Source: a virus. From it: a stretch of 26,774 bases of DNA. Each line of letters opens with the position of its first letter. The first letter of the stretch is position 1. Location of the stretch: the IMG/VR virus record IMGVR_UViG_3300032462_000062, positions 1 through 26,774 of that record, one strand, 5' to 3'. This document shows, one piece after another, positions 12,405 to 26,774 of the stretch. Under the pieces are notes generated by a model. It searched no databases. It saw only the letters and a list, made by a program, of their open reading frames with translations, and was not told the origin of the DNA. A program made the position numbers and the translations under genes.

Positions 12405-12881
12405 ATGTCGACAGAAGAATATAACAGAATTTCATCTAAAAATATTGCACAGTTTGTATTGAATCCCACTCGATATAAACCAGAACCAACTGAAAATGAT
12501 TATTTCAGAGGATGGATATATAGATACTTTCTACGCAAGGTAAACGATGAATCAGCGGACATATTGGAAATATCAGAAAGCCAGTATGATATTTTCGTTA
12601 GATTCAATATGTATGTGGTAGTTCGCATTCGATGGAACATTTCTCTATCACATACGTTAGAGTACGAAGATGGGGCAATAGAATTTAACAGAAAACAAAT
12701 ACGGAATGGCATGCTTTTCATGTCCAATCTTAATATTTATTTTAACAACTTACTAGAGTTTCATAAAGACGGCGGCAGAGCCTCCGTGGGGTTTCTCCTT
12801 CCAGAGGGACAAATGGTACGTAGCAACGGCGTAATTGTCCAAGAAGAAGAAAATAAAATCATCGGACGAATCAATAAATGA
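12405..12881 (+). CDS. Conserved-looking phage protein of unknown function
   Basis: The 158-aa product begins with a Tyr-rich charged segment (RYKPEPTENDYFRGWIYRYF) and includes SESQYDIFVRFNMYVVVRIRW and EFNRKQIRNGMLFMSNLNIY. Proteins of this size with a YxRYFxxKxND-like start and a WxI...LS core occur beside baseplate genes in marine T4-like phages (from memory), without known function. The ATG has AGGA about 9 bases upstream. Its stop overlaps the start of the next gene as ATGA, implying translational coupling with the polymerase-like gene. Probably a virion protein, from context only. Confidence 0.75.
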   Translation: MSTEEYNRISSKNIAQFVLNPTRYKPEPTENDYFRGWIYRYFLRKVNDESADILEISESQYDIFVRFNMYVVVRIRWNISLSHTLEYEDGAIEFNRKQIRNGMLFMSNLNIYFNNLLEFHKDGGRASVGFLLPEGQMVRSNGVIVQEEENKIIGRINK

Positions 12882-14182
12882 TAATATCAAACGAAGAACA
12901 ATTTTCAGAATTCCTATCAAAATGGAATATTGAAGATTCATTTGTGGATGTGCTATTTCTAGATCCTGAAAAGCATCCAAATAATAACAAAATATCTGCG
13001 GTATTTGTTCAGTTTCTATCCGGAGACTCATACATACTACCGTTCCACCATCACGATTGCAATAATCTGCAACTATCGTATTTAGATAGACTCCCATCGA
13101 GCACATCTAATAAATTCTGTGTTAATAAGACAAATATTTTAAGTGTTTTGAAGTTAAAAAATCTAATTGACCTTAAAATTAGAAAATACTTAGAAACGGG
13201 AATAGTATTTGACGATAATAAATGGTATACGGAAGCCCACATTCATTATTATAACACATCGCCACTATCCGATTTAAATGGCATTATCCCTATTCTAAAG
13301 CATTTGGAATCGTTTGATAATATGGTAAAATACCTTAGGTCATTAATAACGGGTACATTTAATCCGTGGTATAATGATAAATTACCAGTAGCTTTATCTT
13401 TTATAGAAGAAGCCGGCTTAAATTGTGACTTAAATAAGTTTGTAGGCAAGGTAAAACATCTTAACGATACATTAACGTACACCCATTATAATATATTTAC
13501 AGCAACAGGAAGACCATCTAATGCGTTCGGTGGAGTTAACTATGCTGCTCTCGGCAAATCAGATGGTAGCAGACAGGGATTTACAAGTAGATTTGATGGT
13601 GGAAAGTTATTCCAATTTGATTATGATGCATTTCACATTAGAATCATCGCAGATCTAATAGGATATGATTTACCAAAAGATTCTATACATAATTGGTTCG
13701 CTGAACAATATTTCGGCAATATAGAAATCACAGACGAAATGTATGATGAAAGTAAAAGAATATCATTCACAAACTTATATGGCACATCTGTAGATGATAA
13801 TGAGACAATTGAATTCTTTTCTGAAACATACAAATTCAGAAAGAAACTATGGGAATATGCACAGACTCATAATCATATTCCTTCTCCATATACGGGAAGG
13901 AAAATATATTTGGCAAGCATTGACAATGTAAGTGAAACTAAAATATTTAACTATTTATTACAGTTATTGGAAACAGAGCATAACATTGGCATTATATATG
14001 ATTTAATGAAGTATATGAAACCAATGAAATCCAAATTAATATTATACACATATGACTCGTTTTTGTTTGATGTTCATCCCGATGAAGTGGAAAGTATGAA
14101 TGAAATAAAGGCAGTTATTGAAGATGGCGGCAAGTATCCTGCTCGGCTTGAAACAGGAACAACGTATCATTCACTTTCTTGA
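12878..14182 (+). CDS. Divergent family A DNA polymerase-like protein
   Basis: This 434-aa protein carries recognisable PolA features. TATGRPSN (208-215) matches TATGRLSS, so R212 equals Klenow R668. Motif A is DYDAFHIR (248-255), keeping the catalytic Asp (D705) and R712 but with His for E710. Motif B has K293 four residues before F297, then YG (301-302), matching K758 and FGxxYG, while R754 is not kept. N358 and Q362 match N845 and Q849. Motif C is TYDSFLFDV, keeping D393 (D882) but Tyr for H881 and Ser for E883. The N-terminus (LFLDPEKHPNNN, then SGDSYILPFHHHD) looks like a shortened, degenerate 3'-5' exonuclease domain. Klenow is ~605 aa. The gene overlaps a structural-type gene by ATGA. 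Fold assignment is strong; activity is uncertain because several catalytic residues differ. It may be a specialised polymerase or a non-catalytic relative. Confidence 0.82.
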   Translation: MIISNEEQFSEFLSKWNIEDSFVDVLFLDPEKHPNNNKISAVFVQFLSGDSYILPFHHHDCNNLQLSYLDRLPSSTSNKFCVNKTNILSVLKLKNLIDLKIRKYLETGIVFDDNKWYTEAHIHYYNTSPLSDLNGIIPILKHLESFDNMVKYLRSLITGTFNPWYNDKLPVALSFIEEAGLNCDLNKFVGKVKHLNDTLTYTHYNIFTATGRPSNAFGGVNYAALGKSDGSRQGFTSRFDGGKLFQFDYDAFHIRIIADLIGYDLPKDSIHNWFAEQYFGNIEITDEMYDESKRISFTNLYGTSVDDNETIEFFSETYKFRKKLWEYAQTHNHIPSPYTGRKIYLASIDNVSETKIFNYLLQLLETEHNIGIIYDLMKYMKPMKSKLILYTYDSFLFDVHPDEVESMNEIKAVIEDGGKYPARLETGTTYHSLS

Positions 14183-14212: not shown

Positions 14213-16324
14213 ATGAAGAAAAACGTATTTAAGTTTTTAATAGAATCCGATAAATTTAGAATAGCAACTAATTTTGAATTACCAGATTGGTCGAAAGAAT
14301 CACATGTTTTAGCATTGGCAGAAACGTTAGTGTATTATGATGTACCAAGTGATATTATACGAGAAGGATTAGCGGCATTAATCGAAGCTAATGATACAGG
14401 ATTATCGACCGCGGCGAAGAAGCTCAGAGACTCCAAGGGACTGAAGCATATTTCAAGGGGACTTTATTCAAAGACAGGAGAAATGCCGGCTGAGTACGAA
14501 CGCGATGGGGATGGATTCAAGCCTGTAAGTGGAGATGAAGCTAACGATGATGGAAAGGAAGAAAAGAAAAAAACAGAACCAAAGAAAGCTGCATCTACTG
14601 CAACGACGAAGCCCGCTGAAACAGAACAACCTGTAGAACAAGAATATGTAATAAATAACCAAAAATTATCAGATGAGGAAGCTCTAGAAAAAGAAGATTC
14701 AGGTTCGATTCCCGCTAAACTGAAAGCGCAAGCAATAAAAGCAACAGCTCAAGAAAAAGAAGATAAGAAAACAGATGAAAATATACCAAATTCGGTAATG
14801 ATAGGCGGCAAGAATAAGGCACTATCAATGGCTAATCCATTGGATAGTGATAGTTTTAACGAGCCGACAGTACCAACAAACACTGAATTTAATAATACAG
14901 CAAAGAAAAAGGGAAATTTAGTACCGGCAAAGGTTGCATATTCAATTCCATTTGAAATTAGAAAAAATATAAAGGCACCGAAGCATTTACTTGATGTATT
15001 TGAACGAATGACAAATACAATGGCATCAGTTGAAACCGCCAAATATTCATATTTTTCAAACCAACAAGGAGGAGCAGGCAGGATATCTGCACAGGCCGGA
15101 GAGTTAATGGCTTTATTTGGTTCAACACTTTCTGATGCAGACGCTGAAAAATTCTTTGATGGATTATTAAAATGGGAATCGGATTTCATATCAGACGAAA
15201 GAGCAAAGGTTCGAAACGGTGAAGGAAGTAAATTTATAAAAAAAGCTAAGAATGGGAATTTGCTCAGATCAAATATGCATTACGTTGACAGTACATGGAT
15301 TCAATCTGCAAAGAAAAATAGAACAGCAATTATGAAACGTTTGAGAAAACAACATGGTAAAGGTGTTTCAATATCGGCGGGTGCATGGGATACTAAAGAA
15401 CAAACAACTGGATTGGGTCTCGAAAATTATACAGAAAATAAGGGATTTTCAACTGATATATTTTTACGTGTTAAATTACCAAATGGACATGAAATATTGG
15501 ATGAAGTATCATTGAAGAAAAACACAGAAGTTAATTTCCTTAACTCTGGTGCCGGAAAATTCGAAGAATGGGATAGTAACATCCCGGATGCAGTAAATCA
15601 AAAAGTTTACGCATCAATCCAACGTGATAATCTAGGTCGGTTTGCTATGAGAAATACAGATAGTATACTTAATTTAATAAAAAAACCAAATAGCGCTTTA
15701 AAAAAACTAATAGACAGACGACTTGGTAAGCTTAAAGATAAAAACATACAGAATATGATTAAGAATGGAGATTACGCCGGCCTCATCGAAATGGTATATA
15801 ATGATACAATAAATGATCGCGGTAGTAGGCATAAGTCAAAAATATTAAGAGAAGCTATATGGATGTTAGCAAAGGATGGAAACGAAGATGCAATAATTGC
15901 CAAAAAAGAATTGGAAGATAAGCAATCAGATTTCATCAAAAATACAATTGCAGAAATATCAAAAAATAAGAAATTGAAAGACGGTATGTTGACTGACATA
16001 AAAGCAGAGTTTCCATTGAAAGCAATATCGGAAGGCGAAGAAACAATGGCAATAGGTGAATATTCATTGGATCGTGATATTATGACTGAAATATTCGGAA
16101 CAGCTGATTTTGATATAATCACAGAACAGTTGGATTCGCATCCCGGACCTCCTCCATTTTTAGGATATACAGTTGAATCGACTGGAAAAACGATTCCCAT
16201 TGCTAAGATAGATATACGTGAAGATGGAGTGGGCTATGGTGGCCAGATCAAATTTGATATGAGGTTGCATGGTGAGTTCGCAAAAATACTCGCAACTGCA
16301 AACAAAAAGATATACGAGTCATAG
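14213..16324 (+). CDS. 703-aa protein of unknown function, possible nuclease-like motif
   Basis: The gene is unrecognised. The N-terminal ~90 residues are helical, then residues ~95-235 are low-complexity and charged (Lys/Glu/Thr/Ala). A more ordered part begins near VAYSIPFEIRKNIKAPKHLL (~241). The segment GFSTDIFLRVKLPNG then EILDEVSLKKN (residues ~411-437) has the spacing of a PD-(D/E)XK-type active site (Asp415, Glu431, Lys435/436), with ExSLK instead of ExK; this is a tentative reading. The C-terminus includes EGEETMAIGEYSLDRDIMTE and a Gly-rich end. It follows the PolA-like gene by 30 bases, with an ATATTTAT motif at 14182-14189 and no Shine-Dalgarno site. It could be structural or DNA-acting. 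Confidence 0.7.
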   Translation: MKKNVFKFLIESDKFRIATNFELPDWSKESHVLALAETLVYYDVPSDIIREGLAALIEANDTGLSTAAKKLRDSKGLKHISRGLYSKTGEMPAEYERDGDGFKPVSGDEANDDGKEEKKKTEPKKAASTATTKPAETEQPVEQEYVINNQKLSDEEALEKEDSGSIPAKLKAQAIKATAQEKEDKKTDENIPNSVMIGGKNKALSMANPLDSDSFNEPTVPTNTEFNNTAKKKGNLVPAKVAYSIPFEIRKNIKAPKHLLDVFERMTNTMASVETAKYSYFSNQQGGAGRISAQAGELMALFGSTLSDADAEKFFDGLLKWESDFISDERAKVRNGEGSKFIKKAKNGNLLRSNMHYVDSTWIQSAKKNRTAIMKRLRKQHGKGVSISAGAWDTKEQTTGLGLENYTENKGFSTDIFLRVKLPNGHEILDEVSLKKNTEVNFLNSGAGKFEEWDSNIPDAVNQKVYASIQRDNLGRFAMRNTDSILNLIKKPNSALKKLIDRRLGKLKDKNIQNMIKNGDYAGLIEMVYNDTINDRGSRHKSKILREAIWMLAKDGNEDAIIAKKELEDKQSDFIKNTIAEISKNKKLKDGMLTDIKAEFPLKAISEGEETMAIGEYSLDRDIMTEIFGTADFDIITEQLDSHPGPPPFLGYTVESTGKTIPIAKIDIREDGVGYGGQIKFDMRLHGEFAKILATANKKIYES

Positions 16325-16402: not shown

Positions 16403-16795
16403 CTGAAAAATCAATTATTATGTATTTTTTGTAAAATAGAAGATTTGGACATAACAATAGAACGCATTAAAGATGAATATAATATCATTTTTAATTATAT
16501 ATTTGTACTCCAAGATAGAGATGATTTAGATAGTTTATTCATCACATTCAATATTGAAAGTGACGCTAATTATAAAGTGGAAGGCTTGAATGCGATACTC
16601 ATACATCGCAAAAAATTCACAAATACGATTTATACGATAAATGCATTGAACGCCGTAATCAAATCCAAAACCGGCGGCAACCTAGATGATAGATACCAAC
16701 TTGATTGGTCAGAGTTCAAAAATACAATTCTCCTATCGGATCGTGACTCTTATAAGAAATTTCACACAAAAGTTTATCATATCGAAGAATTGTAG
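16403..16795 (+). CDS. Conserved phage protein, probable CTG start
   Basis: From CTG 16403 the product is 130 aa: LKNQLLCIFCKIEDLDITIE, then YNIIFNYIFVLQDRDD, LITFNIESD-type strand, ILIHRKKFTNTIYTINALNA and LDDRYQLDWSEFKNTILLSD. Proteins of this pattern in T4-like marine phages start with M-K-x-x-LLCxF (from memory), so the start should be at 16403, yet that codon is CTG. AGGGGACGGAG lies directly upstream. The only normal in-frame start nearby is TTG 16445, which would cut off the conserved N-terminus. A 22-codon ORF (16338-16406) ends in a TGA overlapping the CTG (CTGA), like the usual ATGA coupling. Function unknown. Confidence 0.65.
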   Translation: MKNQLLCIFCKIEDLDITIERIKDEYNIIFNYIFVLQDRDDLDSLFITFNIESDANYKVEGLNAILIHRKKFTNTIYTINALNAVIKSKTGGNLDDRYQLDWSEFKNTILLSDRDSYKKFHTKVYHIEEL

Positions 16796-16829
16796 CATAT
16801 ATATAGATAAACAAACAAAGGTTACAAAT

Positions 16830-17219
16830 ATGAGTGATGCATGGCACTACGCTGATTTGTCAGATTCTCCGGCAACTCCAGTCGAAACGGCTGAAGAGTA
16901 TTGTCAACGGCTATACCCGAATACAGTTGCGGAATTTAAGAAGATTCAAGATGAAATGTTTCAAACATTTTGTAAGAAGCAACGAAATTACGGCCCAGCG
17001 AATATATCAGTAGGGACATCGGTATCAACTCCAGCCGACATCAAATTATCATTAACTGGACTATTTTTCAGAATGAATGATAAGATTCAACGGATCAAAC
17101 AGTTGGTAGTATTGGGCGAACCCGATGAAGTGGGAGAATCAATAATGGACACGTATCAAGATGTATCTGTATATGGTATAATTGCACAGATAGTCCACCG
17201 CGGCAAATGGGCTAAATAA
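16830..17219 (+). CDS. Nmad1-like nucleotide modification associated protein (DUF1599 type)
   Basis: The 129-aa, all-helical product has EFKKIQDEMFQTFCKKQRNYG (residues 35-55), GLFFRMNDKIQRIKQL (77-92) and ESIMDTYQDVSVYGIIAQI (103-121). This order, with a KxxxYG motif, an R-x-x-D-K-x-x-R-I helix and an E-x-x-x-D-x-x-x-Y helix, is that of the Nmad1/DUF1599 family. The acidic residues are reminiscent of all-alpha NTP pyrophosphatases (MazG, dUTPase type). The start at 16830 is chosen over an upstream GTG/ATG extension because the family begins near here and AAAGG lies at 16817-16820. It sits next to an FkbM methyltransferase and before replication genes. Family fairly sure; substrate unknown. 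Confidence 0.75.
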   Translation: MSDAWHYADLSDSPATPVETAEEYCQRLYPNTVAEFKKIQDEMFQTFCKKQRNYGPANISVGTSVSTPADIKLSLTGLFFRMNDKIQRIKQLVVLGEPDEVGESIMDTYQDVSVYGIIAQIVHRGKWAK

Positions 17220-17220
17220 T

Positions 17221-17880
17221 ATGAAGCATGCGAAGGATGGAAAGTTATGGATTCCAGATAATGAATTCTGGACAGGTTGGGGATTAAACTACGAAAAGTC
17301 ACACTGGAATGAAGTAAAACAGTATATACAATCAACTAGAGTTGCTCTTGATGTTGGTGCTCATGTTGGTATTTGGAGTATTAGAATGGGTGGAATTTTT
17401 GATACAGTACATTCCTTTGAGGCTCTATCCAAGCATGTACAATGTTTTAATGAAAATCTAAAATTATTTGACAATGTCAATATCAACCAGATTGGGCTAT
17501 CAAATACAGTATCAACTCTCAAAATGAAAGCGTTGGATTTCAATTCAGGTGCATCATCATTTGAATATAAGATAGTTCAAAAGAATACAAAACATAAACA
17601 AACTATTGTAGATGTTGATACAAGACCACTTGATAGTTACAATCTAAAAAATGTTGATTTCATAAAAATGGATGTTGAAGGACATGAACTTAAAGTGATT
17701 GCAGGGGCAAAGAGAACACTAACAGAAAACTCACCTGTTATCTTCATTGAAATTCTAAATAGAAACAAACCATATGACGATATCACCTCGGTTTATACTG
17801 GACTTAATGCTCTAGCTGAATTTGGGTATCGAATGGAAAAACACGTGGGCAGCGGCAATTATATATGCGTTAAAAGATAA
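17221..17880 (+). CDS. FkbM family methyltransferase
   Basis: This 219-aa SAM-dependent methyltransferase of the FkbM type shows motif I VALDVGAHVGIWSI (residues 41-54), the acidic HSFEA after strand 2, and the family hallmark VDFIKMDVEGHELKVIAGA (145-163), followed by PVIFIEI. FkbM enzymes usually O-methylate sugars or small molecules. In a phage this could decorate virion or host surface sugars, or a modified nucleotide; the target cannot be told from sequence. It begins one base after the Nmad1-like gene's stop, so the two are almost certainly co-expressed, which makes nucleotide modification a fair hypothesis. Confidence 0.9.
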   Translation: MKHAKDGKLWIPDNEFWTGWGLNYEKSHWNEVKQYIQSTRVALDVGAHVGIWSIRMGGIFDTVHSFEALSKHVQCFNENLKLFDNVNINQIGLSNTVSTLKMKALDFNSGASSFEYKIVQKNTKHKQTIVDVDTRPLDSYNLKNVDFIKMDVEGHELKVIAGAKRTLTENSPVIFIEILNRNKPYDDITSVYTGLNALAEFGYRMEKHVGSGNYICVKR

Positions 17881-17940: not shown

Positions 17941-17953
17941 ATGTGTAGGAAAG

Positions 17954-17993
17954 ACACTAAAACAAACCTAAATAATAAAACAATAAACAATAA
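17954..17993 (+). promoter_or_regulatory. G-free, A-rich leader of the gp32-like gene (possible translational operator)
   Basis: The 40 bases before the AGGAG of the SSB gene contain no G and are mostly A, so the RNA should be unstructured. T4 gp32 represses its own translation by binding an unstructured A/U-rich leader reaching the ribosome binding site (established for T4). This leader has the same look, so autoregulation is plausible; I did not find the pseudoknot seen in T4. Confidence 0.4.
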
Positions 17994-18003
17994 GGAGATA
18001 AAA

Positions 18004-18876
18004 ATGAGTATAGATCTAAGCAAAATTAAGTCACGTTTGAATACGCTTCAAAATAGCCAATCATCAAAATCGGTTATGTGGCGCCCGGTAGTGGGCAAGC
18101 AGGTAATCCGGATTGTACCTTATAAATTCAATCCATCAAATCCTTTCTTCGAAGGCCTCTTTCATTACAATATTGGTGGCAAAACCATATTGTCTCCAGC
18201 TACATTCGGCGATGCAGATCCTGTTTTGGAATTTGCAAATAATCTGAAACGTACAGGAGAAAAGGAAGATTGGAGAGCGGCAAAGCGAATGGAACCAAAG
18301 TTAAGAACGTATGCTCCTGTCATTGTTCGTGGAGAAGAAAACGAAGGCGTCCGATTCTATGGATTTGGAAAAACGGTATATCAAGAACTTCTTGGTGTAA
18401 TCGATGATCCTGATTACGGTGATATTACGGATCCATTGACTGGGAGAGATATTACGATTGAGTATATATCAGCAGAAGAAGCCGGTAAATCATATCCAGA
18501 AACAAGAATTCGTGTAAAACCGAATCCAACTCCTCTTGATGAAGATCAAACTCGTGCAGCATCATTTCTAGAAAATCAACAAAAGATTGATGATATTTGG
18601 ACAGTTCCAACCTACAATGAAATGAAGGCATATCTCGAGCAGTGGTTGAATCCAACCGAAGAAACCGAAGAAACGGAAGATAAATCCAATTCGGATAATG
18701 CTTCTCAATCAGGTGGATTTGCATTGAACACACCAGCATCTCCCGCGGCCGAAGCCACACAACCAACAGCAGCGGCAATATACGCGCCGGCGCCGACCGT
18801 TGCAGTTGAATCAAAGGAACGGGCTAGTAAAGTTGATCAAGTAAATAAGGACTTTGACGCCCTTTTTAGTGGATAG
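18004..18876 (+). CDS. 32: Single-stranded DNA-binding protein (T4 gp32-like)
   Basis: This 290-aa protein coats single-stranded DNA in replication and recombination. The N-terminal SIDLSKIKSRLNTLQ, then the SSB core starting MWRPVVGKQVIRIVPYKFNP and NPFFEGLFHYNIGGKTILSP, and the acidic low-complexity tail ending VDQVNKDFDALFSG all fit the gp32 family. The C-terminal tail (TEETEETED repeat, Ala/Pro linker, final DFDALFSG) would contact UvsX and polymerase partners. The His/Cys zinc site of T4 gp32 is not evident. I chose ATG 18004, not the in-frame ATG 17941, because AGGAG lies at 17993-17997 and the family begins here. UvsX follows after ten bases. Confidence 0.88.
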   Translation: MSIDLSKIKSRLNTLQNSQSSKSVMWRPVVGKQVIRIVPYKFNPSNPFFEGLFHYNIGGKTILSPATFGDADPVLEFANNLKRTGEKEDWRAAKRMEPKLRTYAPVIVRGEENEGVRFYGFGKTVYQELLGVIDDPDYGDITDPLTGRDITIEYISAEEAGKSYPETRIRVKPNPTPLDEDQTRAASFLENQQKIDDIWTVPTYNEMKAYLEQWLNPTEETEETEDKSNSDNASQSGGFALNTPASPAAEATQPTAAAIYAPAPTVAVESKERASKVDQVNKDFDALFSG

Positions 18877-18886
18877 GGAGTAAACA

Positions 18887-20047
18887 ATGGCAAAAAAGCA
18901 AAATAAAGCTAATGAGACAGGAATGTCCGAGCGTGATGAACTATCTGATTCACTGTCAGCGGCTTTAAATAAAGTCTTTAAAAATCAAAAAATAGCATAT
19001 TCCCTTTATGATTTAGATGCACCAACAAATGTATCTGATTGGATTTCAACGGGATGTGATATGCTTGACCTTGCTATCTCTAACCGACCAAACGGGGGAA
19101 TCCCCGTTGGTCGGATCACAGAGATAACAGGATTAGAGCAAAGCGGAAAATCTTTACTTTCATATCATCTATTAGCGGAAACCCAAAAAAAAGGTGGAGT
19201 AGCTGTTTTAATAGATACGGAAACGGCAGTTGATAATCCATTCTTAACTGCAATTGGAGTCAATCTGAATGATTTGGTTTACGTCAATGTTATGACAGTA
19301 GAAGAGATATTTTCAGTAATTGAAGCAATTATTTCTAAGATTCGTGAAAAGGCACCCGATAGGCTTGTGACCGTCGTCGTCGATTCGGTCGCTGCGGCAA
19401 CCACTGAATTAGAACAATCAGCTGATTATACCAAAGATGGTTGGTCGACTGGGAAGGCTATTATTCTTTCAAAGGCAATGCGTAAAGTTACAAATATGAT
19501 CGGCAGACAGAAGATTACTCTTGTGTTCACAAATCAACTTAGAATGAAACTTAATGCAATGTTTGGTGATCCGTATACTACAAGCGGAGGCAAGGCATTA
19601 CAATTTCACTCATCTGTTCGACTTCGATTGAAGAAAAAAGGAAAACTGAAAGTTAAAACTGAAATGGGCGATAGTATAGTCGGTATTACAACGCAAGCGG
19701 TGATAATAAAAAACAGAATGGGACCACCTGAAACTACAGTTGAATTTGATATTCTATTTAACAGTGGAGTAGATAATTACGGGTCTTGGTTCAATGCATT
19801 GAAAAAAGCAAACCTCATAAGCGGTAAAGGTTGGTACGTGTACGAAGTAACTAACATTGATACAGGTGAAGTTGAAAGAGAATGGAAGTTTCAAATGAAG
19901 GATTTTGTAAAAACGTTAGAAACCGATAAGCCTCTTCGTGATAATATATATAATCGCATTTGTAACGCTGTTATAATGGATTATATCAAACGAGAAGAAT
20001 CTATCATAAACGGAGAAATCCAACAAGAACGGGATGAGGACGAATGA
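18887..20047 (+). CDS. uvsX: UvsX/RecA-like recombinase
   Basis: This 386-aa ATP-dependent strand-exchange protein forms filaments on single-stranded DNA for recombination-dependent replication and repair. Walker A is GLEQSGKS (82-89), Walker B VTVVVDS (161-167), the loop-2 lead is TNQLR (215-219) and GGKALQFHSS (234-243) follows, all as in RecA/UvsX. It begins with a charged helix and ends with an acidic Glu/Asp tail. Its length is close to T4 UvsX (391 aa). AGGGAG lies just before the ATG. The stop overlaps the next start as ATGA. A GC-rich hairpin lies within the gene at 19084-19114. Confidence 0.92.
   Translation: MAKKQNKANETGMSERDELSDSLSAALNKVFKNQKIAYSLYDLDAPTNVSDWISTGCDMLDLAISNRPNGGIPVGRITEITGLEQSGKSLLSYHLLAETQKKGGVAVLIDTETAVDNPFLTAIGVNLNDLVYVNVMTVEEIFSVIEAIISKIREKAPDRLVTVVVDSVAAATTELEQSADYTKDGWSTGKAIILSKAMRKVTNMIGRQKITLVFTNQLRMKLNAMFGDPYTTSGGKALQFHSSVRLRLKKKGKLKVKTEMGDSIVGITTQAVIIKNRMGPPETTVEFDILFNSGVDNYGSWFNALKKANLISGKGWYVYEVTNIDTGEVEREWKFQMKDFVKTLETDKPLRDNIYNRICNAVIMDYIKREESIINGEIQQERDEDE
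19084..19114 (+). other. Strong GC-rich hairpin inside uvsX
   Basis: CCGACCAAACGGGG (19084-19097) pairs with CCCCGTTGGTCGG (19102-19114) through 13 base pairs with one bulged A and a GAAT loop. It encodes the conserved NRPNGGIPVGRI before Walker A. It is unusually stable for this AT-rich sequence. Confidence 0.75.
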
Positions 20048-21093
20048 AAGTAAATCCAAAGTATTATGAACTATTCAAAAATATGGAAGGCCGATTTGAA
20101 AAAAACGAATCACTTACCGGAAATTCAAATGTTCTTATAATAGATGGGATGAATACATTTATTCGATGTTGGTCTGTAGTACCAAATCTGAGTGATAATG
20201 GGGAGCATATTGGAGGCGTGACTGGTTTTTTAAAATCAATAGGGTACGCTATTCGAGAGCTTAATCCAACTCGGGTAATTGTCGTATTCGATGGAAACAA
20301 TTCATCCAGACGCCGGAAGAAAATTCATTCTGATTATAAAGCCAATCGTGGTAAGAATAAGCTTAGAGTAAATCGTGGAATATACGAACAGCTAAGTGAT
20401 GAGGATGAACAACAATCCAAGCGTAGACAGATAATTATCCTAGCTGAACTATTGACGATGCTACCAGTCACTACTATGATTTATGATGGAGTGGAAGCGG
20501 ATGATGTAATGGCTTATATCGTCAATAGATTATGTGATGAACATTCCATCATCATGTCGGAAGATGGTGACTTTTTACAATTAGTAGATGATACTTGTAT
20601 GGTATGGAAACCAACCAGTAAGAAATTGTATACACCCGAATTAGTATTGGAAACGACTGGCATCCCATCTCATAACTTTTTAATGTATCGTATTATGGAT
20701 GGAGACAAGTCGGATAATATCAGCGGCATTAAAGGCGCCGGCATTAAGACCATAATGAAGTTGTTTCCCAAAATTACAACGAATTCTAAACTAACTATTG
20801 ATGAAATCATATCTCATTCAGAAAATAAGCAAGGAAATGGAAAACTCTATGATACTATATTAGACAACAAAGATGTTCTTGGTCGAAACTTCAAATTAAT
20901 GCAATTAGAAGATGTTGATATACCAGGTTCAACAAAATTGCAAGTACAAAGTAGATTTCGTGAAGATATCCCAAAATTGGATAAGGTTTCATTTATTGGT
21001 ACATTAAAACGAGAGAAAATGTCGGACGCGTTTAGAGACCCGATAGGGTGGTTAACATCCACATTTAATACAATAGAATCATATAGAAAATGA
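20044..21093 (+). CDS. rnh: 5'-3' exonuclease / flap endonuclease (T4 RNase H-like)
   Basis: The 349-aa protein belongs to the FEN/5'-3' exonuclease family, which removes RNA primers and 5' flaps on the lagging strand. Metal-binding residues are visible in order: LIIDGMN (D34), VVFDG (D83), GVEADDV (E151, D153, D154), SEDGDF (D174, D176) and GDKSDNI (D221, D224). GIKGAGIKT (228-236) is the helix-hairpin-like DNA-binding motif. A basic segment (RRRKKIHSDYKANRGKNK, ~89-106) would form the helical arch. It is slightly longer than T4 RNase H (305 aa). It overlaps both uvsX and the helicase gene by ATGA, so the three are translationally coupled. Confidence 0.9.
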   Translation: MKVNPKYYELFKNMEGRFEKNESLTGNSNVLIIDGMNTFIRCWSVVPNLSDNGEHIGGVTGFLKSIGYAIRELNPTRVIVVFDGNNSSRRRKKIHSDYKANRGKNKLRVNRGIYEQLSDEDEQQSKRRQIIILAELLTMLPVTTMIYDGVEADDVMAYIVNRLCDEHSIIMSEDGDFLQLVDDTCMVWKPTSKKLYTPELVLETTGIPSHNFLMYRIMDGDKSDNISGIKGAGIKTIMKLFPKITTNSKLTIDEIISHSENKQGNGKLYDTILDNKDVLGRNFKLMQLEDVDIPGSTKLQVQSRFREDIPKLDKVSFIGTLKREKMSDAFRDPIGWLTSTFNTIESYRK

Positions 21094-22451
21094 CAGAAAG
21101 ACACGACACTTTATCGAAATATGGCACATCATTTCAGAATAAAGTAGTATCATGTCTCCTATCTGACGGTGATTTTTTATCTAACGTTGATGATATCCTG
21201 TTTGTGGATTACTTTGAAAGTGAAGCAAATAAATGGATTGTAGATGAAATAAAGAAATATTTCGCTAAGTTTGGGACAATACCATCACTGGATGTATTTA
21301 AAGTAAATATATCAGATGTTAAGCATGATGTACTCAAACAATCAATTACGGATAATCTCCGATCGGCTTGGGGATTTCGTGGCGCTACTGATTTAGATTT
21401 TGTAAAGGAAAAGTTTACTGATTTTTGTAAGAATCAGAAAATGAAAGAAGCCATTATGAAATCTGTCGATTTGATGGAGTCTGGAAACTTCGAACAAATT
21501 AGAGCAGAAATTGATGCGGCATTAAAGGCTGGCAATCAAGATGACATTGGGTATGATTACATATTAAATGTTGAATCTCGTTTGAATGATGAAAGCACAC
21601 GAGATACTATAGCAACTCCATGGGGCATTATAAATGAACTAATGGATGGTGGATTGGGCCCAGGTGAACTTGGGTGTATTATGGCAGCAACCGGCGGCGG
21701 TAAAAGCTGGATGTTAGGTGCAATAGCCGCTCAGGCAGTTTCTGCAGGCAAAGTTGTTTTTCATTATTCTCTTGAAAATGGGACTAAACTCGCTGCAGAA
21801 CGATATGACAGTCTTTTCACCGGAATCGTATCCCAAAAACATAAGTTAAACAAAGATAAGATTCGGCATAAAGTCGAATCTTTGACGGGTAATCTAATTA
21901 TTAAGGTATATCCGACTAAGACCGCTTCAGTTAGGACGATAGTATCCCATATGGAACGTTGCAAGGCAACGGGCGTTGTGCCGGATTTGATTATAGTGGA
22001 TTATGCCGACCTTCTCAGACCATCATCTAAAGCAAGTGATAGTAAGTATGAAGAACTAGGTGGAATATATGAAGAGCTACGTGGAATGGGCGGTATTCTT
22101 AATGTTCCAGTATGGACTGCGTCTCAAGTAAATCGTGATGGTACAGAAGATGAAATTATTAGAGTAAGCGCTATCGCCGATTCATATGCAAAAGCTTTCG
22201 TATCGGATTTCATCATGTCAATTAGTAGAAAAGATAAAGATAAAATAAGTAATACAGCTAGAGTTCACATCGTTAAAAACAGATTAGGGCCAGATGGATT
22301 AACATTGCATTCAAATATGGATTTATCAAATGGGCAGGCGGAAATTCATCCACCGAACTCAAGCAATTCAGTTATGGCTGAAAAGAGTTCAAGTGTAGCC
22401 GGTAATGCACATCGTGAAAATTTATCCAAGAAATATAGCGAATTAATGTAA
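21090..22451 (+). CDS. 41: Replicative DnaB-like helicase (T4 gp41-like)
   Basis: This 453-aa hexameric helicase unwinds DNA ahead of the fork and works with primase. The N-terminal helical domain (1-150) is followed by the RecA-type core: GELGCIMAATGGGKSWMLG with Walker A at 199-206, FHYSLEN (H1a/DnaB motif), Walker B LIIVDYADLL (300-309), then WTASQVNRDG and a KNRLGPDG arginine-finger-like motif near the end. T4 gp41 is 475 aa, so the length is right. The primase gene (gp61) is not next to it in this window. It overlaps the exonuclease gene by ATGA, and a 64-base AT-rich gap follows before the reductase gene. Confidence 0.93.
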   Translation: MTERHDTLSKYGTSFQNKVVSCLLSDGDFLSNVDDILFVDYFESEANKWIVDEIKKYFAKFGTIPSLDVFKVNISDVKHDVLKQSITDNLRSAWGFRGATDLDFVKEKFTDFCKNQKMKEAIMKSVDLMESGNFEQIRAEIDAALKAGNQDDIGYDYILNVESRLNDESTRDTIATPWGIINELMDGGLGPGELGCIMAATGGGKSWMLGAIAAQAVSAGKVVFHYSLENGTKLAAERYDSLFTGIVSQKHKLNKDKIRHKVESLTGNLIIKVYPTKTASVRTIVSHMERCKATGVVPDLIIVDYADLLRPSSKASDSKYEELGGIYEELRGMGGILNVPVWTASQVNRDGTEDEIIRVSAIADSYAKAFVSDFIMSISRKDKDKISNTARVHIVKNRLGPDGLTLHSNMDLSNGQAEIHPPNSSNSVMAEKSSSVAGNAHRENLSKKYSELM

Positions 22452-22515: not shown

Positions 22516-25308
22516 ATGAACATAAGCAATCAGATTTTATCTGACTTAACAACTTACATGAAATATGCAAAATATCAACCAGAATTAGGTCGCCGAGAGA
22601 CTTGGGATGAATTGGTTACTAGAAATATGAATATGCATATAAAACGATACCCCAGCCTCACAGATGAAATAAGAAAAGCATATAAATTTGTATATGATAA
22701 GAAAGTTTTACCATCAATGCGAAGCCTACAATTCGCCGGCAAATCAATTGAAATATCGCCCAATAGAATATATAATTGTCTGGCAAGAGAACAAGAATTT
22801 ATAACATCGACTGGTGTTATGTCATTTGATGATTTCAATGATGGAGACGAAATTTCTGTTTTAAGTCATCTTGGTAATTGGAAAAGGGCGACGGTGAAGT
22901 CATATGGGAAGCAATTACTTAATCGAATTACATTTGTTAGAGGAAAATCTAAATATGAAGTATATGCTACAGATTCTCATAGATGGGTATTATATGACGG
23001 GGCGGAAACGACGGAATTAAAACCGAAAGATATAATTTACCCATCTCAGAAAACTCAGAATTTTGACTATGATTCCGCGGACCCTTTCGAGAAATTATAT
23101 TGGGCATATGGATATGTATATGGGGATGGGACGGTAACATCCAATGGAACATCTAAATACTCTATGGTTAGGTTATGTGGAGAAGAATCCAATAGATATC
23201 GTTATAGGTTCGAAGAACTCGGATTTAAAACATCTACATCATTATCATTGGATGGTGATTTTATGGCATATACTGGAAAGTATTTAAAAACATTACCGGA
23301 AGTAGACAAAACTGATTTAAATTTATTAAAGGCATTTGTTTCTGGTTTGCTCGATGCGGACGCATATAAAAACCCGGATTGGTACGGTAATAATACACTA
23401 GGGAAATATCGAAGTATCCTACAACATTCAGCTGAAACCGTCGATTTTTTGAAAACGTCTCTTCCGCTGATTGGATATTATATTACAAATATAAAAGATA
23501 TTGCGGGACACGAAACAGCATATGGCATACGTCCTGACGGAGCAGCATCTATCCACATAACAAATCATATTGGCAGTAGACGAAATACCGCTTGGAGTGT
23601 AAAGAAGATAGAACAAACAGAACGATATGAAACAGTGTGGTGTCTTGAAGTAGAAGATGATCATTCATTTATGTTTCCATCCGGATTAGTAACTGGAAAT
23701 TGCGCGTATTTACCCATCGATGATTTCCGGGCATTTAGCGAAACAATGTTTCTTTTATTGGGAGGAACCGGAGTTGGGTACTCTGTACAATTCCATCACG
23801 TCGATCAATTGCCGGAAATACGAAAACCCAACCCAAACAGGACGCGCCGGTTTTTAATAGGAGACTCAATTGAAGGATGGGCGGATACCGTAAAGGTTCT
23901 TATGAGAGCATATTTTGAAGGAAAATCAACACCAATTTTTGATTATTCGGATATTAGACCAAAAGGTGCACAATTAATAACATCTGGTGGAAAAGCACCC
24001 GGTCCTCAACCTCTAAAGGATTGTGTACATAACATCACAAAGATTTTAAATGCTAAAGAAAATGCCAGTAAGTTAACATCATTGGAAGTCCACGATATAA
24101 TCTGTTTCATAGCAGATGCGGTATTGGCAGGCGGAATACGTAGAGCGGCTCTGATTTCACTATTTTCATTTGATGATGGATCAATGTCGACTTGTAAGTT
24201 TGGAAATTGGTGGGAATTAAATCCACAACGTGGTAGGTCAAACAATTCAGCTGTCATTATGCGACATCGTGTTAAGAAACGTGAATTCTTGACATTTTTC
24301 GAACGTGTGAAGAACAGCAGAAGTGGAGAACCTGGTGTGTATTTTTCTAATGATAAAGATATGGGTACAAATCCATGTGCTGAAATTTCTCTTAGACCAA
24401 ATCAATTTTGCAATCTGACGGAAATCAACTCATCCGATGTAAAAGATCAAGCCGATCTGAACGATCGAGCCATCACCGCCGCTTTCCTAGGAACGTTACA
24501 AGCAGGATATACCGATTTTCATTATCTCAGAGACGTATGGAAGCGAACGACCGAAAAGGAAGCATTAGTCGGTGTTGGTATGACTGGAATTGCAAGTGGT
24601 ACGGTATTCCCCTTGGATTTAGAAGAAGCGGCCAGAGAAGCATTGAAAGAAAATACCAGAGTCGCAAAATTAATTGGAATCAATTCAGCCGCTAGAACAA
24701 CGACGGTTAAACCATCAGGTACATCATCGTTGGTACTTGGTTGCTCTTCAGGAATTCACGCTTGGCATGCTAAATATTACATTCGACATATTAGAGTCGG
24801 TAAAAACGAAGCAATATATCAGTATTTGGCACTAAATCATCCAGAACTTGTTGAAGATGAATACTTTAGACCACAAGAACAAGCGGTAATTAAGATTCCA
24901 CAAATGGCTCCAGATACTGCAATTACTAGAGAAGATGAAACAACATTATCTTTCTTAGAACGTGTGGCACGCTGGAATGATGAATGGGTCGCAACCGGCC
25001 ACCGGAAGGGACCAAACACACATAATGTATCAGCTACAGTTTCAGTCAAATTAGATGAATGGGATATGGTCGCAGAGTGGATATGGAAGCACAGGTCTAA
25101 AGTTAATGGATTGAGTTGTTTACCTCATAATGATTCAGACCACTCGTATATGCAGGCACCATTTCAAGAATGCACAAAAGCCGAATATGTGAAAATGATG
25201 AAATCACTAACAGAGGTGGAACTAATTAACATACGTGAAGTAGAAGATAATACCACATTGAGCCAGGAACTCGCATGCGCAGGTGAAGATGGGTGCGAAA
25301 TTATATGA
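22516..25308 (+). CDS. nrdJ: Class II (adenosylcobalamin-dependent) ribonucleotide reductase with intein
   Basis: The enzyme reduces ribonucleotides to deoxyribonucleotides for phage DNA synthesis. The 930-aa precursor comprises an 87-residue N-extein, a 308-residue intein (88-395) and a C-extein from C396; the spliced product is ~622 aa. The spliced active-site region reads SPNRIYN-CAYLPIDDF. Other hallmarks are GGTGVGYSVQ (416-425), GGIRRAALISLFS (539-551), NPCAEISL (619-626, active-site Cys621), QFCNLTEIN (630-638) and the C-terminal redox pair in CAGEDGCEII (C921, C927). No N-terminal ATP cone is present. I call class II from the sequence style and from no NrdB-like subunit in the window; a partner gene outside cannot be excluded. 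Only a weak AGAG lies before the ATG. The intein is listed separately. Confidence 0.88.
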   Translation: MNISNQILSDLTTYMKYAKYQPELGRRETWDELVTRNMNMHIKRYPSLTDEIRKAYKFVYDKKVLPSMRSLQFAGKSIEISPNRIYNCLAREQEFITSTGVMSFDDFNDGDEISVLSHLGNWKRATVKSYGKQLLNRITFVRGKSKYEVYATDSHRWVLYDGAETTELKPKDIIYPSQKTQNFDYDSADPFEKLYWAYGYVYGDGTVTSNGTSKYSMVRLCGEESNRYRYRFEELGFKTSTSLSLDGDFMAYTGKYLKTLPEVDKTDLNLLKAFVSGLLDADAYKNPDWYGNNTLGKYRSILQHSAETVDFLKTSLPLIGYYITNIKDIAGHETAYGIRPDGAASIHITNHIGSRRNTAWSVKKIEQTERYETVWCLEVEDDHSFMFPSGLVTGNCAYLPIDDFRAFSETMFLLLGGTGVGYSVQFHHVDQLPEIRKPNPNRTRRFLIGDSIEGWADTVKVLMRAYFEGKSTPIFDYSDIRPKGAQLITSGGKAPGPQPLKDCVHNITKILNAKENASKLTSLEVHDIICFIADAVLAGGIRRAALISLFSFDDGSMSTCKFGNWWELNPQRGRSNNSAVIMRHRVKKREFLTFFERVKNSRSGEPGVYFSNDKDMGTNPCAEISLRPNQFCNLTEINSSDVKDQADLNDRAITAAFLGTLQAGYTDFHYLRDVWKRTTEKEALVGVGMTGIASGTVFPLDLEEAAREALKENTRVAKLIGINSAARTTTVKPSGTSSLVLGCSSGIHAWHAKYYIRHIRVGKNEAIYQYLALNHPELVEDEYFRPQEQAVIKIPQMAPDTAITREDETTLSFLERVARWNDEWVATGHRKGPNTHNVSATVSVKLDEWDMVAEWIWKHRSKVNGLSCLPHNDSDHSYMQAPFQECTKAEYVKMMKSLTEVELINIREVEDNTTLSQELACAGEDGCEII
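22777..23700 (+). mobile_element. Intein with LAGLIDADG homing endonuclease inside nrdJ
   Basis: This in-frame 308-residue insert starts at Cys88 (CLAREQEFITSTGVMSF, block A) and ends SGLVTGN before the +1 Cys396. Block B is ATDSHRW (Thr152, His155), block F VWCLEVEDDHSFMF. Two LAGLIDADG-type motifs are visible, YWAYGYVYGDG (195-205) and AFVSGLLDADA (273-283), with the expected Asp residues, so the homing endonuclease may be active. The penultimate residue is Gly instead of the usual His, which can slow Asn cyclisation but occurs in some active inteins. Insertion is exactly before the reductase's conserved active-site Cys, a typical intein site, so splicing is needed for enzyme activity. Confidence 0.93.
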
Positions 25309-25336: not shown

Positions 25337-26774
25337 ATAGATATTTACCAAAACATTTTTATAAAAAGAACGAAGCAAGGTAATATAGTTAATTTATGGG
25401 ATGATCAGAAAGGATTCTCTCAGTTTAGGTTCGATAGATATTGCTACATAAAAGACCCACAAGGTGAGTTTACAAGCATTTACGGTGATCCATGCAGTAA
25501 AACATATAGTTGGGAGGGCGAGAGTGAAGATGATTTGTTTGAACATGATGTAAATCTTACGACTCGTGTTCTTGTTGATCTATATGTAGATTCCGATACA
25601 CCATCGGTTAATCATACATTACTTAACTTTGATATTGAAGTTGAAATGATTACAGGATTGCCCGACCCAACAAAAGCTGAACAGGGAATCACATCAATAG
25701 CAGCTCATGATTCAGTGTCAAATTCCTACGTTGTTTTTATTTTAGATGAAGATAAAGTAGTTAAGAATAGTAAATCTGGAGATCGTGAAATACGATCCTT
25801 TGTTGATGAATACGATCTATTGATGGATTTTGTTCGATATTGGGAAACCATCCGTCCGACAATCATAACGGGCTGGAATTGTGATAAATTCGATGTCCCA
25901 TATCTTTATAATAGGCTTGTTAAAATATGCGGCACGTCAAATGCCAATAGACTTTCTGAAATAGGTGAAGTATCATATTCACCATTTAAGGGTAAGTTTC
26001 AAATCGCTGGGGTTAGTTGTCTTGATTATATGATTTTGTATAAGAATTTCTCATCCTCGGAATCCGTATCATATTCCCTTAACGCAATTGCAATGAAGGA
26101 ATTGGGCCGCGGTAAAATTGAATATAAAGGAAATCTTGATCAGCTGAAACGTGATGATATTGAAAAATTCATAGAATACAATATTACCGATGTTGAACTC
26201 GTAGTTGAAATTGATAGGTTGAAAAAATACATTGATTTGGCTCGCAGTATTTGCCACGCGGGCCGCGTACCATATGAAGAGATTGTATATTCATCTAAAT
26301 ATCTTGAAGGGGCTATTCTAGCTTTCTTGAAACAAAAGAATATGGTAGCATGTAATAAGATGAAACACGCACAATCCAAAATGAAGGAAATCAAAGAATC
26401 AGGCGAAAAGGGATTCGCTGGTGCATTTGTAAAAGAACCAGTAGCTGGTAAATACAATTGGATATATGATTTGGATTTAACTTCATTGTATCCATCTATT
26501 ATAATGGGACTTAACATTTCACCTGAAACTAAAATTGGTAAAATAACCAATTGGAATATTGAGAAGTTCGTCAAAGGAACGTGTGATGAATGGTTCATTG
26601 GTGGGAAAGTATGGACGAACGAAAAGCTCAGAGCTACCCTCGATGAGATGAATATATCAGTAGCATCAAATGGTGTGATGTATCGGCAAGATGTTCGAGG
26701 TTGTATTCCTGAAATTCTTAATACTTGGTTCGACCAGAGAAAGGTATATCAGGCCAAAATGGAAGATTTAGATA
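25337..26774 (+). CDS. 43: Family B DNA polymerase (T4 gp43-like), 3' end beyond the window
   Basis: The frame is open to the window end, giving ~479 codons of the replicative polymerase. From ATA 25337 the protein reads IDIYQNIFIKR, matching the short strand that opens gp43-type enzymes. Exo I is NFDIEVE (98-103; T4 D112/E114), Exo II ITGWNCDKFDVPYL (177-190), Exo III YNITDVEL (281-288) and polymerase motif A DLDLTSLYPSII (378-389), so proofreading and polymerase domains look intact. There is no ATG, GTG or TTG in frame between the stop at 25328-25330 and residue 67, so translation probably begins at ATA 25337 or ATT 25343, behind AAGAGGAA. AGAGGA is spaced 7 bases from ATT. Family call is very sure; the start is not. 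Confidence 0.93.
   Translation, partial: MDIYQNIFIKRTKQGNIVNLWDDQKGFSQFRFDRYCYIKDPQGEFTSIYGDPCSKTYSWEGESEDDLFEHDVNLTTRVLVDLYVDSDTPSVNHTLLNFDIEVEMITGLPDPTKAEQGITSIAAHDSVSNSYVVFILDEDKVVKNSKSGDREIRSFVDEYDLLMDFVRYWETIRPTIITGWNCDKFDVPYLYNRLVKICGTSNANRLSEIGEVSYSPFKGKFQIAGVSCLDYMILYKNFSSSESVSYSLNAIAMKELGRGKIEYKGNLDQLKRDDIEKFIEYNITDVELVVEIDRLKKYIDLARSICHAGRVPYEEIVYSSKYLEGAILAFLKQKNMVACNKMKHAQSKMKEIKESGEKGFAGAFVKEPVAGKYNWIYDLDLTSLYPSIIMGLNISPETKIGKITNWNIEKFVKGTCDEWFIGGKVWTNEKLRATLDEMNISVASNGVMYRQDVRGCIPEILNTWFDQRKVYQAKMEDLD

Follow-up and report, generated by a model that had tools for sequence, protein, structure and literature searches.

Why should a phage that encodes its own family B polymerase (PolB) also carry a divergent relative of the family A polymerases (PolA), adjacent to its baseplate genes? 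The question is raised by a stretch of 26,774 nucleotides, hereafter called the window, which corresponds to positions 1 to 26,774 of IMG/VR virus record IMGVR_UViG_3300032462_000062. An earlier, sequence-only reading had hesitated for this gene between a repair, translesion or end-processing enzyme, a DNA-handling part of packaging, and a non-catalytic relative.

A divergent family A polymerase

The gene and its polymerase motifs lie as follows in the window.

12878..14182, + strand: thumbless PolA-like polymerase, 434-aa ORF (homology, conserved active site, predicted fold)
13619..13642, + strand: motif A, D248-Y-D-A-F-H253-I-R255 (D248 and H253 in 81/81 and 59/59 homologues)
13742..13783, + strand: motif B / O helix, Y289..K293..F297..Y301-G302 (K, F, Y and G in 81/81 and 59/59)
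14045..14059, + strand: motif C, Y390-T-Y392-D393-S394 (Y392 and D393 in 81/81 and 59/59)

The similarity of the 434-aa product to PolA far exceeds chance. The protein matches phrog_17 "DNA polymerase" (E 1.5e-12) and Pfam DNA_pol_A (E 1.5e-5, 24.6 bits, below the cut-off of 34.3), and the profile search that had been proposed against PolA families succeeded, a profile built from 68 homologues matching Klenow at E 4.4e-6. Among those 68 members of the family, 44 match PF00476 at E<=0.01. In keeping with the missing thumb described below, the matches start at about profile position 100-115, and the members from Flavobacterium phage immuto and G015 exceed the curated cut-off once their pieces are summed. 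Pfam, phrog_17, the Klenow match and the predicted fold agree on the divergent PolA-like protein that was first proposed.

Alignment with Escherichia coli Pol I gives the correspondences R212=R668, D248=D705, H253=E710, R255=R712, H271=H734, Y289=R754, K293=K758, F297=F762, Y301=Y766, N358=N845, Q362=Q849, Y392=H881, D393=D882, and S394=E883. The family A landmarks listed in the sequence-only reading, its three substitutions (E710 to His253, H881 to Tyr392, E883 to Ser394) and the loss of R754, where Tyr289 is found, all match this alignment. The C-terminus shows no evident clamp-binding motif.

Conservation of the active site

Two sets of homologues were compared. Set 1 contains 81 sequences with a median pairwise identity of 37%, retrieved with search patterns that included motifs A and C. 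Because such patterns could build in the conservation of catalytic residues, retrieval was redone with residues 130-243 only, a probe without motifs A and C, which gave the 58 new homologues of set 2 (59 sequences with the window). D248, D393, K293, F297, Y301, G302, R212, Q362, H253, and Y392 are invariant in 81/81 sequences of set 1, and the same residues are invariant in 59/59 of set 2. The catalytic Asp residues of motifs A and C are therefore present throughout (D248 and D393, 81/81 and 59/59), as are the equivalents of Lys758, Phe/Tyr762, Tyr766 and the TGR Arg668 (K293, F297, Y301, and R212). The steric gate Glu710 and His881 are absent from the family, their positions being occupied by His253 and Tyr392 in 81/81 and 59/59 sequences, and the R754 position (Y289) is Tyr in 79/81 and 58/59. 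Position 394 is Ser in 67 and Ala in 14 of the 81 homologues.

Free variation of the Asp pair would have spoken against a polymerase; both residues are invariant in 81 plus 58 independently retrieved homologues. The invariance of the active site in both sets argues that the protein is not degenerate and that it is under strong constraint as a catalyst. In Klenow, E710, R754, and H881 contact the sugar, the triphosphate and the primer end. Since their replacements by His, Tyr, and Tyr are fixed or nearly so, the substrate may differ from an ordinary primer-template and dNTP.

The nearest PolAs outside the family, as found by tblastn, are those of the marine phages HMO-2011 and CRP-3 and of Twort-like Staphylococcus phages, which are of ordinary length and are annotated as the DNA polymerases of these phages. 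Unlike the thumbless proteins, they retain a thumb, E710, R754, and H881. Their motif C reads HDS, so that the change of E883 to Ser is common to them and to the thumbless PolA; altered chemistry as its meaning is thereby ruled out.

A palm-and-fingers fold predicted without a thumb

Two further features concern the predicted structure.

13364..13513, + strand: missing-thumb site (IExxG-TGR spacing; DSSP of the AlphaFold2 model)
12878..13294, + strand: remnant of an N-terminal 3'-5' exonuclease domain, about residues 1-139 (MAFFT alignment; AlphaFold2 model)

The AlphaFold2 (AF2) model, obtained with 68 sequences, has a pLDDT of 92.4 and a pTM of 0.90. Its best solved match in Foldseek is Klenow (E 4.5e-20), and a VIA superposition on Bacillus Pol I aligns 407 residues (Z 27.7, rmsd 3.4). 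The predicted palm-and-fingers fold of PolA type is thus well supported, and the palm domain on which a polymerase reading depended is present in all three analyses.

As a rule, PolA and replicative polymerases have a thumb, which in Pol I grips the duplex product. In the window protein, the helix of residues 163-179, ending with IExxG, reaches TGR (R212) within 35 residues, and DSSP finds the model helix-free between residues 184 and 242. The IExxG-to-TGR gap is 23-41 residues in the family and 23-35 in set 2; in E. coli it measures 127 residues, and the alignment puts it at about 190-240 for other phage PolAs. Spacing and model together indicate that the whole thumb is missing in all family members compared.

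Residue 1 of the model aligns with residue 302 of Bacillus Pol I. When the family was aligned by MAFFT with phage PolAs and E. coli Pol I, none of the Klenow exonuclease acids D355, E357 (DTE), D424, and D501 had a counterpart in it. Taq and Bst are Pol I enzymes that also have no active 3'-5' exonuclease, so that loss of these acids does not exclude membership of Pol I. The fused 5'-nuclease domain of bacterial Pol I is absent as well. The protein is most distinctive for having neither the thumb nor the exonuclease acids, two losses that the sequence-only reading missed.

Compared with Klenow, Bst, and Taq, the thumbless PolA has the palm and fingers, the Asp residues of motifs A and C, an N-terminal exonuclease-like fold, and the equivalents of K758, F762, Y766, R668, N845, Q849, and H734. 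It differs in its length of 434 aa, about 18% identity, the missing thumb and exonuclease acids, shorter fingers loops, and the changes of E710 to His, H881 to Tyr, and R754 to Tyr. It is a variant of family A, which has the fold and catalytic features of that family and has neither the thumb nor the Glu710 gate, R754, or H881. Palm-fingers polymerases without a thumb are also found among the Abi reverse transcriptases AbiA, AbiK, and Abi-P2 (PMC11077055). These have a reverse-transcriptase fold with helical and HEPN domains and are not PolAs.

Genomic context

The neighbors of the polymerase gene that are considered below are the following.

12405..12881, + strand: g158, conserved gene directly upstream, baseplate side (in 41/47 loci with enough upstream sequence)
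16403..16795, + strand: g116, small protein beside the thumbless PolA (co-occurrence)
17941..18876, + strand: gp32-like single-stranded DNA-binding protein, SSB (Pfam gp32 5.6e-11)
18887..20047, + strand: RecA/UvsX-type recombinase (Pfam RecA 8.4e-55)
20044..21093, + strand: 5'-3' exonuclease / flap endonuclease, FEN (5_3_exonuc_N 7.4e-29)
21090..22451, + strand: DnaB-type replicative helicase (DnaB_C 7.2e-19)
25337..26774, + strand: family B replicative DNA polymerase, truncated by the contig end (DNA_pol_B_exo1 5e-24, DNA_pol_B 2e-14)

The coupling to a baseplate-side gene is as first described: the start of the polymerase ORF overlaps the stop of the ORF at 12405-12881 via ATGA. When neighbors of homologues were collected, the gene order was found to be kept in about 80 loci. 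It runs from sheath, tube, T4_baseplate protein, tape measure, g276, LysM wedge protein, hub, and g158 to PolA, and continues, with inserts, through g116, SSB, RecA, FEN, DnaB, and RNR. With baseplate genes upstream and replication genes downstream, PolA lies at the seam of both blocks. The statement that it is not placed with the replication genes does not hold, since it borders the SSB-RecA-FEN-DnaB-RNR-PolB block. The FEN gene is the separate-gene counterpart of the N-terminal 5'-nuclease domain of Pol I. Synteny is only weak evidence for a shared pathway, as most genes of the lineage are syntenic. Moreover, gap filling, translesion synthesis and recombination synthesis are indistinguishable by gene order alone.

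In some relatives, PolA is followed directly by g116 and then by SSB, and in immuto no gene separates PolA from the preceding g158 homologue, which lies at the opposite end of the record. The window has, between PolA and the replication block, a 703-aa gene, a small gene of nucleotide-modification type and an FkbM gene. The 703-aa protein (14213-16324), directly after PolA and present in 33 related loci, is without a match in Pfam, and its one PHROG match (phrog_19589, E 0.0047) is marginal. The product of the second gene (16788-17219) is a DUF1599 "nucleotide modification associated" protein and may have to do with modified bases; 7-deazaguanine genes and DpdA are present in immuto. The FkbM-type methyltransferase gene (17221-17880), inserted between g116 and SSB, is absent from all other loci of the set. 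Further downstream, the RNR (22516-25308) has an insertion domain of the B12-dependent type and an in-frame intein-like insert at residues 127-392 (Intein_splicing, below the Pfam cut-off).

The association with g116 is constant. Of the PolA loci, 52 extend at least 4.6 kb downstream, and every one of these has g116; 47/49 loci found via g116 alone and with at least 4.5 kb upstream have PolA, and both genes occur in the same 6 of 50,697 phage records. The g116 protein has 130 aa and an HRKK motif, and its model has a pLDDT of 90. Fold searches with this model gave no convincing match, nor did comparison of g158 and g116 with PHROG. Homologues of g116 start with MKTQLLCTF. In the window, this start corresponds to a CTG (16403) that shares its frame with the listed TTG (16445), so that either the CTG is used or an ATG has been lost. 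The constant co-occurrence makes g116 a candidate partner of the thumbless PolA, on weak evidence, and may reflect lineage signal only. The baseplate gene g276 is almost as restricted as g116 and PolA among phage records. Rhodothermus phage RM378 (L183 14966-16342) has g276, and the thumbless PolA and g116 are absent from it by tblastn. Judged by eye from SLYPS and DTDS-like motifs, its own polymerase is a PolB.

Distribution of the family

Scanning IMG/VR with the single protein gave no match, and an alignment was required; at least 565 confirmed stretches with a thumbless PolA were then found, of which 80 loci were retained. A misassembly or a one-off is ruled out by these relatives. Among 50,697 phage records searched by tblastn, only three phages have full-length relatives: Microcystis phage Mel-JY01, Flavobacterium phage immuto (four records) and the uncultured LR756508 (484 kb). 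The outcome was the same when another family member was the query. Matches in GTDB genomes are confined to 8 MAG contigs, and the plasmids searched gave none. The family appears to be phage-borne, and the thumbless PolA belongs to the core genes of a large lineage of T4-like phages, called aquatic here because of the named records (Baltic Sea, Microcystis) and of marine MAG titles.

The immuto protein gp001 ("DNA polymerase family A"), WWT39333.1 of Mel-JY01 and an unannotated ORF of LR756508 belong to this family; they are full-length homologues that share the gene order and the active-site set with the window. The annotations seen for these three do not describe the loss of the thumb or a role, and in the open-access literature searched, no account of a T4-like phage with a thumbless or second PolA came to light.

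An accessory polymerase

The PolB reported from 25337 onward is indeed encoded there, as its two Pfam matches show. A PolB is present in 12/18 records examined, and those without it are fragments, except for the complete immuto genome, which has a separate, full-length PolA of 778 aa (gp199) instead. The genomes of immuto, Mel-JY01, and LR756508, as well as two long contigs, have a gene for a DnaG/gp61-type primase, so that the thumbless PolA is ruled out as the only primase of the phage. Hence, with a PolB or a second PolA and a DnaG-type primase present, the thumbless PolA is an accessory polymerase, neither the replicase nor the sole primase.

LR756508 carries three polymerase families, namely Pol III alpha (an ORF of 575 aa), the thumbless PolA and a PolB in pieces; the polymerase regions are at 47415-48068, 241015-242154, and 260623-266900 of the record, the locus L005 being 221015-262154. 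In group 2.2 jumbo phages, a minimal split Pol III alpha accompanies PolB (PMC7824862), a precedent from a different family for a stripped-down second polymerase beside PolB.

Possible roles of the thumbless PolA

Our preferred reading, in which we place about even confidence, is that of an accessory palm-and-fingers family A polymerase carrying out short gap filling and/or recombination-linked synthesis beside the main replicase. As judged from its residues and its model, the protein would be a catalytically intact two-metal nucleotidyl transferase. With no thumb to hold the duplex and no proofreading, it would add few nucleotides per binding event, a distributive mode suited to short patches. 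It would act beside the main replicase (PolB, or the second PolA in immuto) within the SSB-RecA-FEN-DnaB module. There, it could fill in the short gaps left once FEN has taken away primers or flaps, and/or perform short synthesis in recombination-dependent replication, extending recombination intermediates. The arrangement would amount to a "split Pol I," the 5'-nuclease being encoded by the separate FEN gene. SSB or g116 might conceivably tether the polymerase in place of a thumb. The repair or end-processing role first suggested is possible as well.

It is possible, although rather doubtful, that the protein represents a distinct enzyme class that needs a dedicated partner (g116 and/or SSB) as its thumb and that makes or extends short ribo- or deoxynucleotide primers at recombination intermediates, by a route separate from DnaG. 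Ribonucleotide use or primer synthesis is compatible with the fixed His253; the presence of DnaG makes it less likely.

It is doubtful that the protein is a polymerase for translesion synthesis or damage bypass that SSB and RecA bring to a stalled main replicase. The absent proofreading acids, the short fingers, the missing thumb, and the adjoining RecA and SSB would all suit such an enzyme, and UV damage would be a plausible pressure since the named relatives are aquatic. However, the protein has no specific lesion-bypass feature, and its presence in nearly every member of the lineage is more like that of a housekeeping part.

We regard as unlikely a primase-polymerase, either primer-making or primer-independent, that would use ribo- or deoxynucleotides to start or restart forks. 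The invariant His at the E710 steric-gate position points in this direction, although His253 may still exclude a 2'-OH. So does the absence of the thumb, as in polymerases that do not grip a long duplex; indeed, thumbless AbiA belongs to a group of enzymes whose DNA synthesis needs neither template nor primer (PMC11077055). Nevertheless, all three named phage genomes and two long contigs already have a DnaG/gp61-type primase, and the thumbless PolA has no zinc finger or other domain for template recognition.

Template-independent end processing by a terminal transferase, for packaging or end joining, is quite improbable. Thumbless palm enzymes such as AbiA can work without a template, and PolA adjoins baseplate genes in the gene order. 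However, the protein retains the equivalents of N845, Q849, R668, F762, and Y766, by which the minor groove of the primer-template and the nascent pair are read, and the neighborhoods of the relatives show no link to terminase genes. The idea of a DNA-handling part of packaging likewise finds no favor in the fully conserved active site and the replication and recombination context. For these same reasons, it is most improbable that the protein is a non-catalytic, structural or regulatory PolA descendant in the baseplate or virion, as the ATGA overlap with g158 and the upstream baseplate genes could suggest, given catalytic residues that are invariant in about 140 divergent homologues and the replication block downstream.

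Significance

In this lineage, a PolA that is thumbless and non-proofreading, and whose altered active site is frozen, is kept beside a full replicase. This offers a testable case both for a minimal PolA and for a dedicated second polymerase that serves phage replication or recombination. Finally, "PolA" matches in marine viromes may correspond to this accessory thumbless enzyme and not to a replicase, so that they should not be used blindly as replicase markers.
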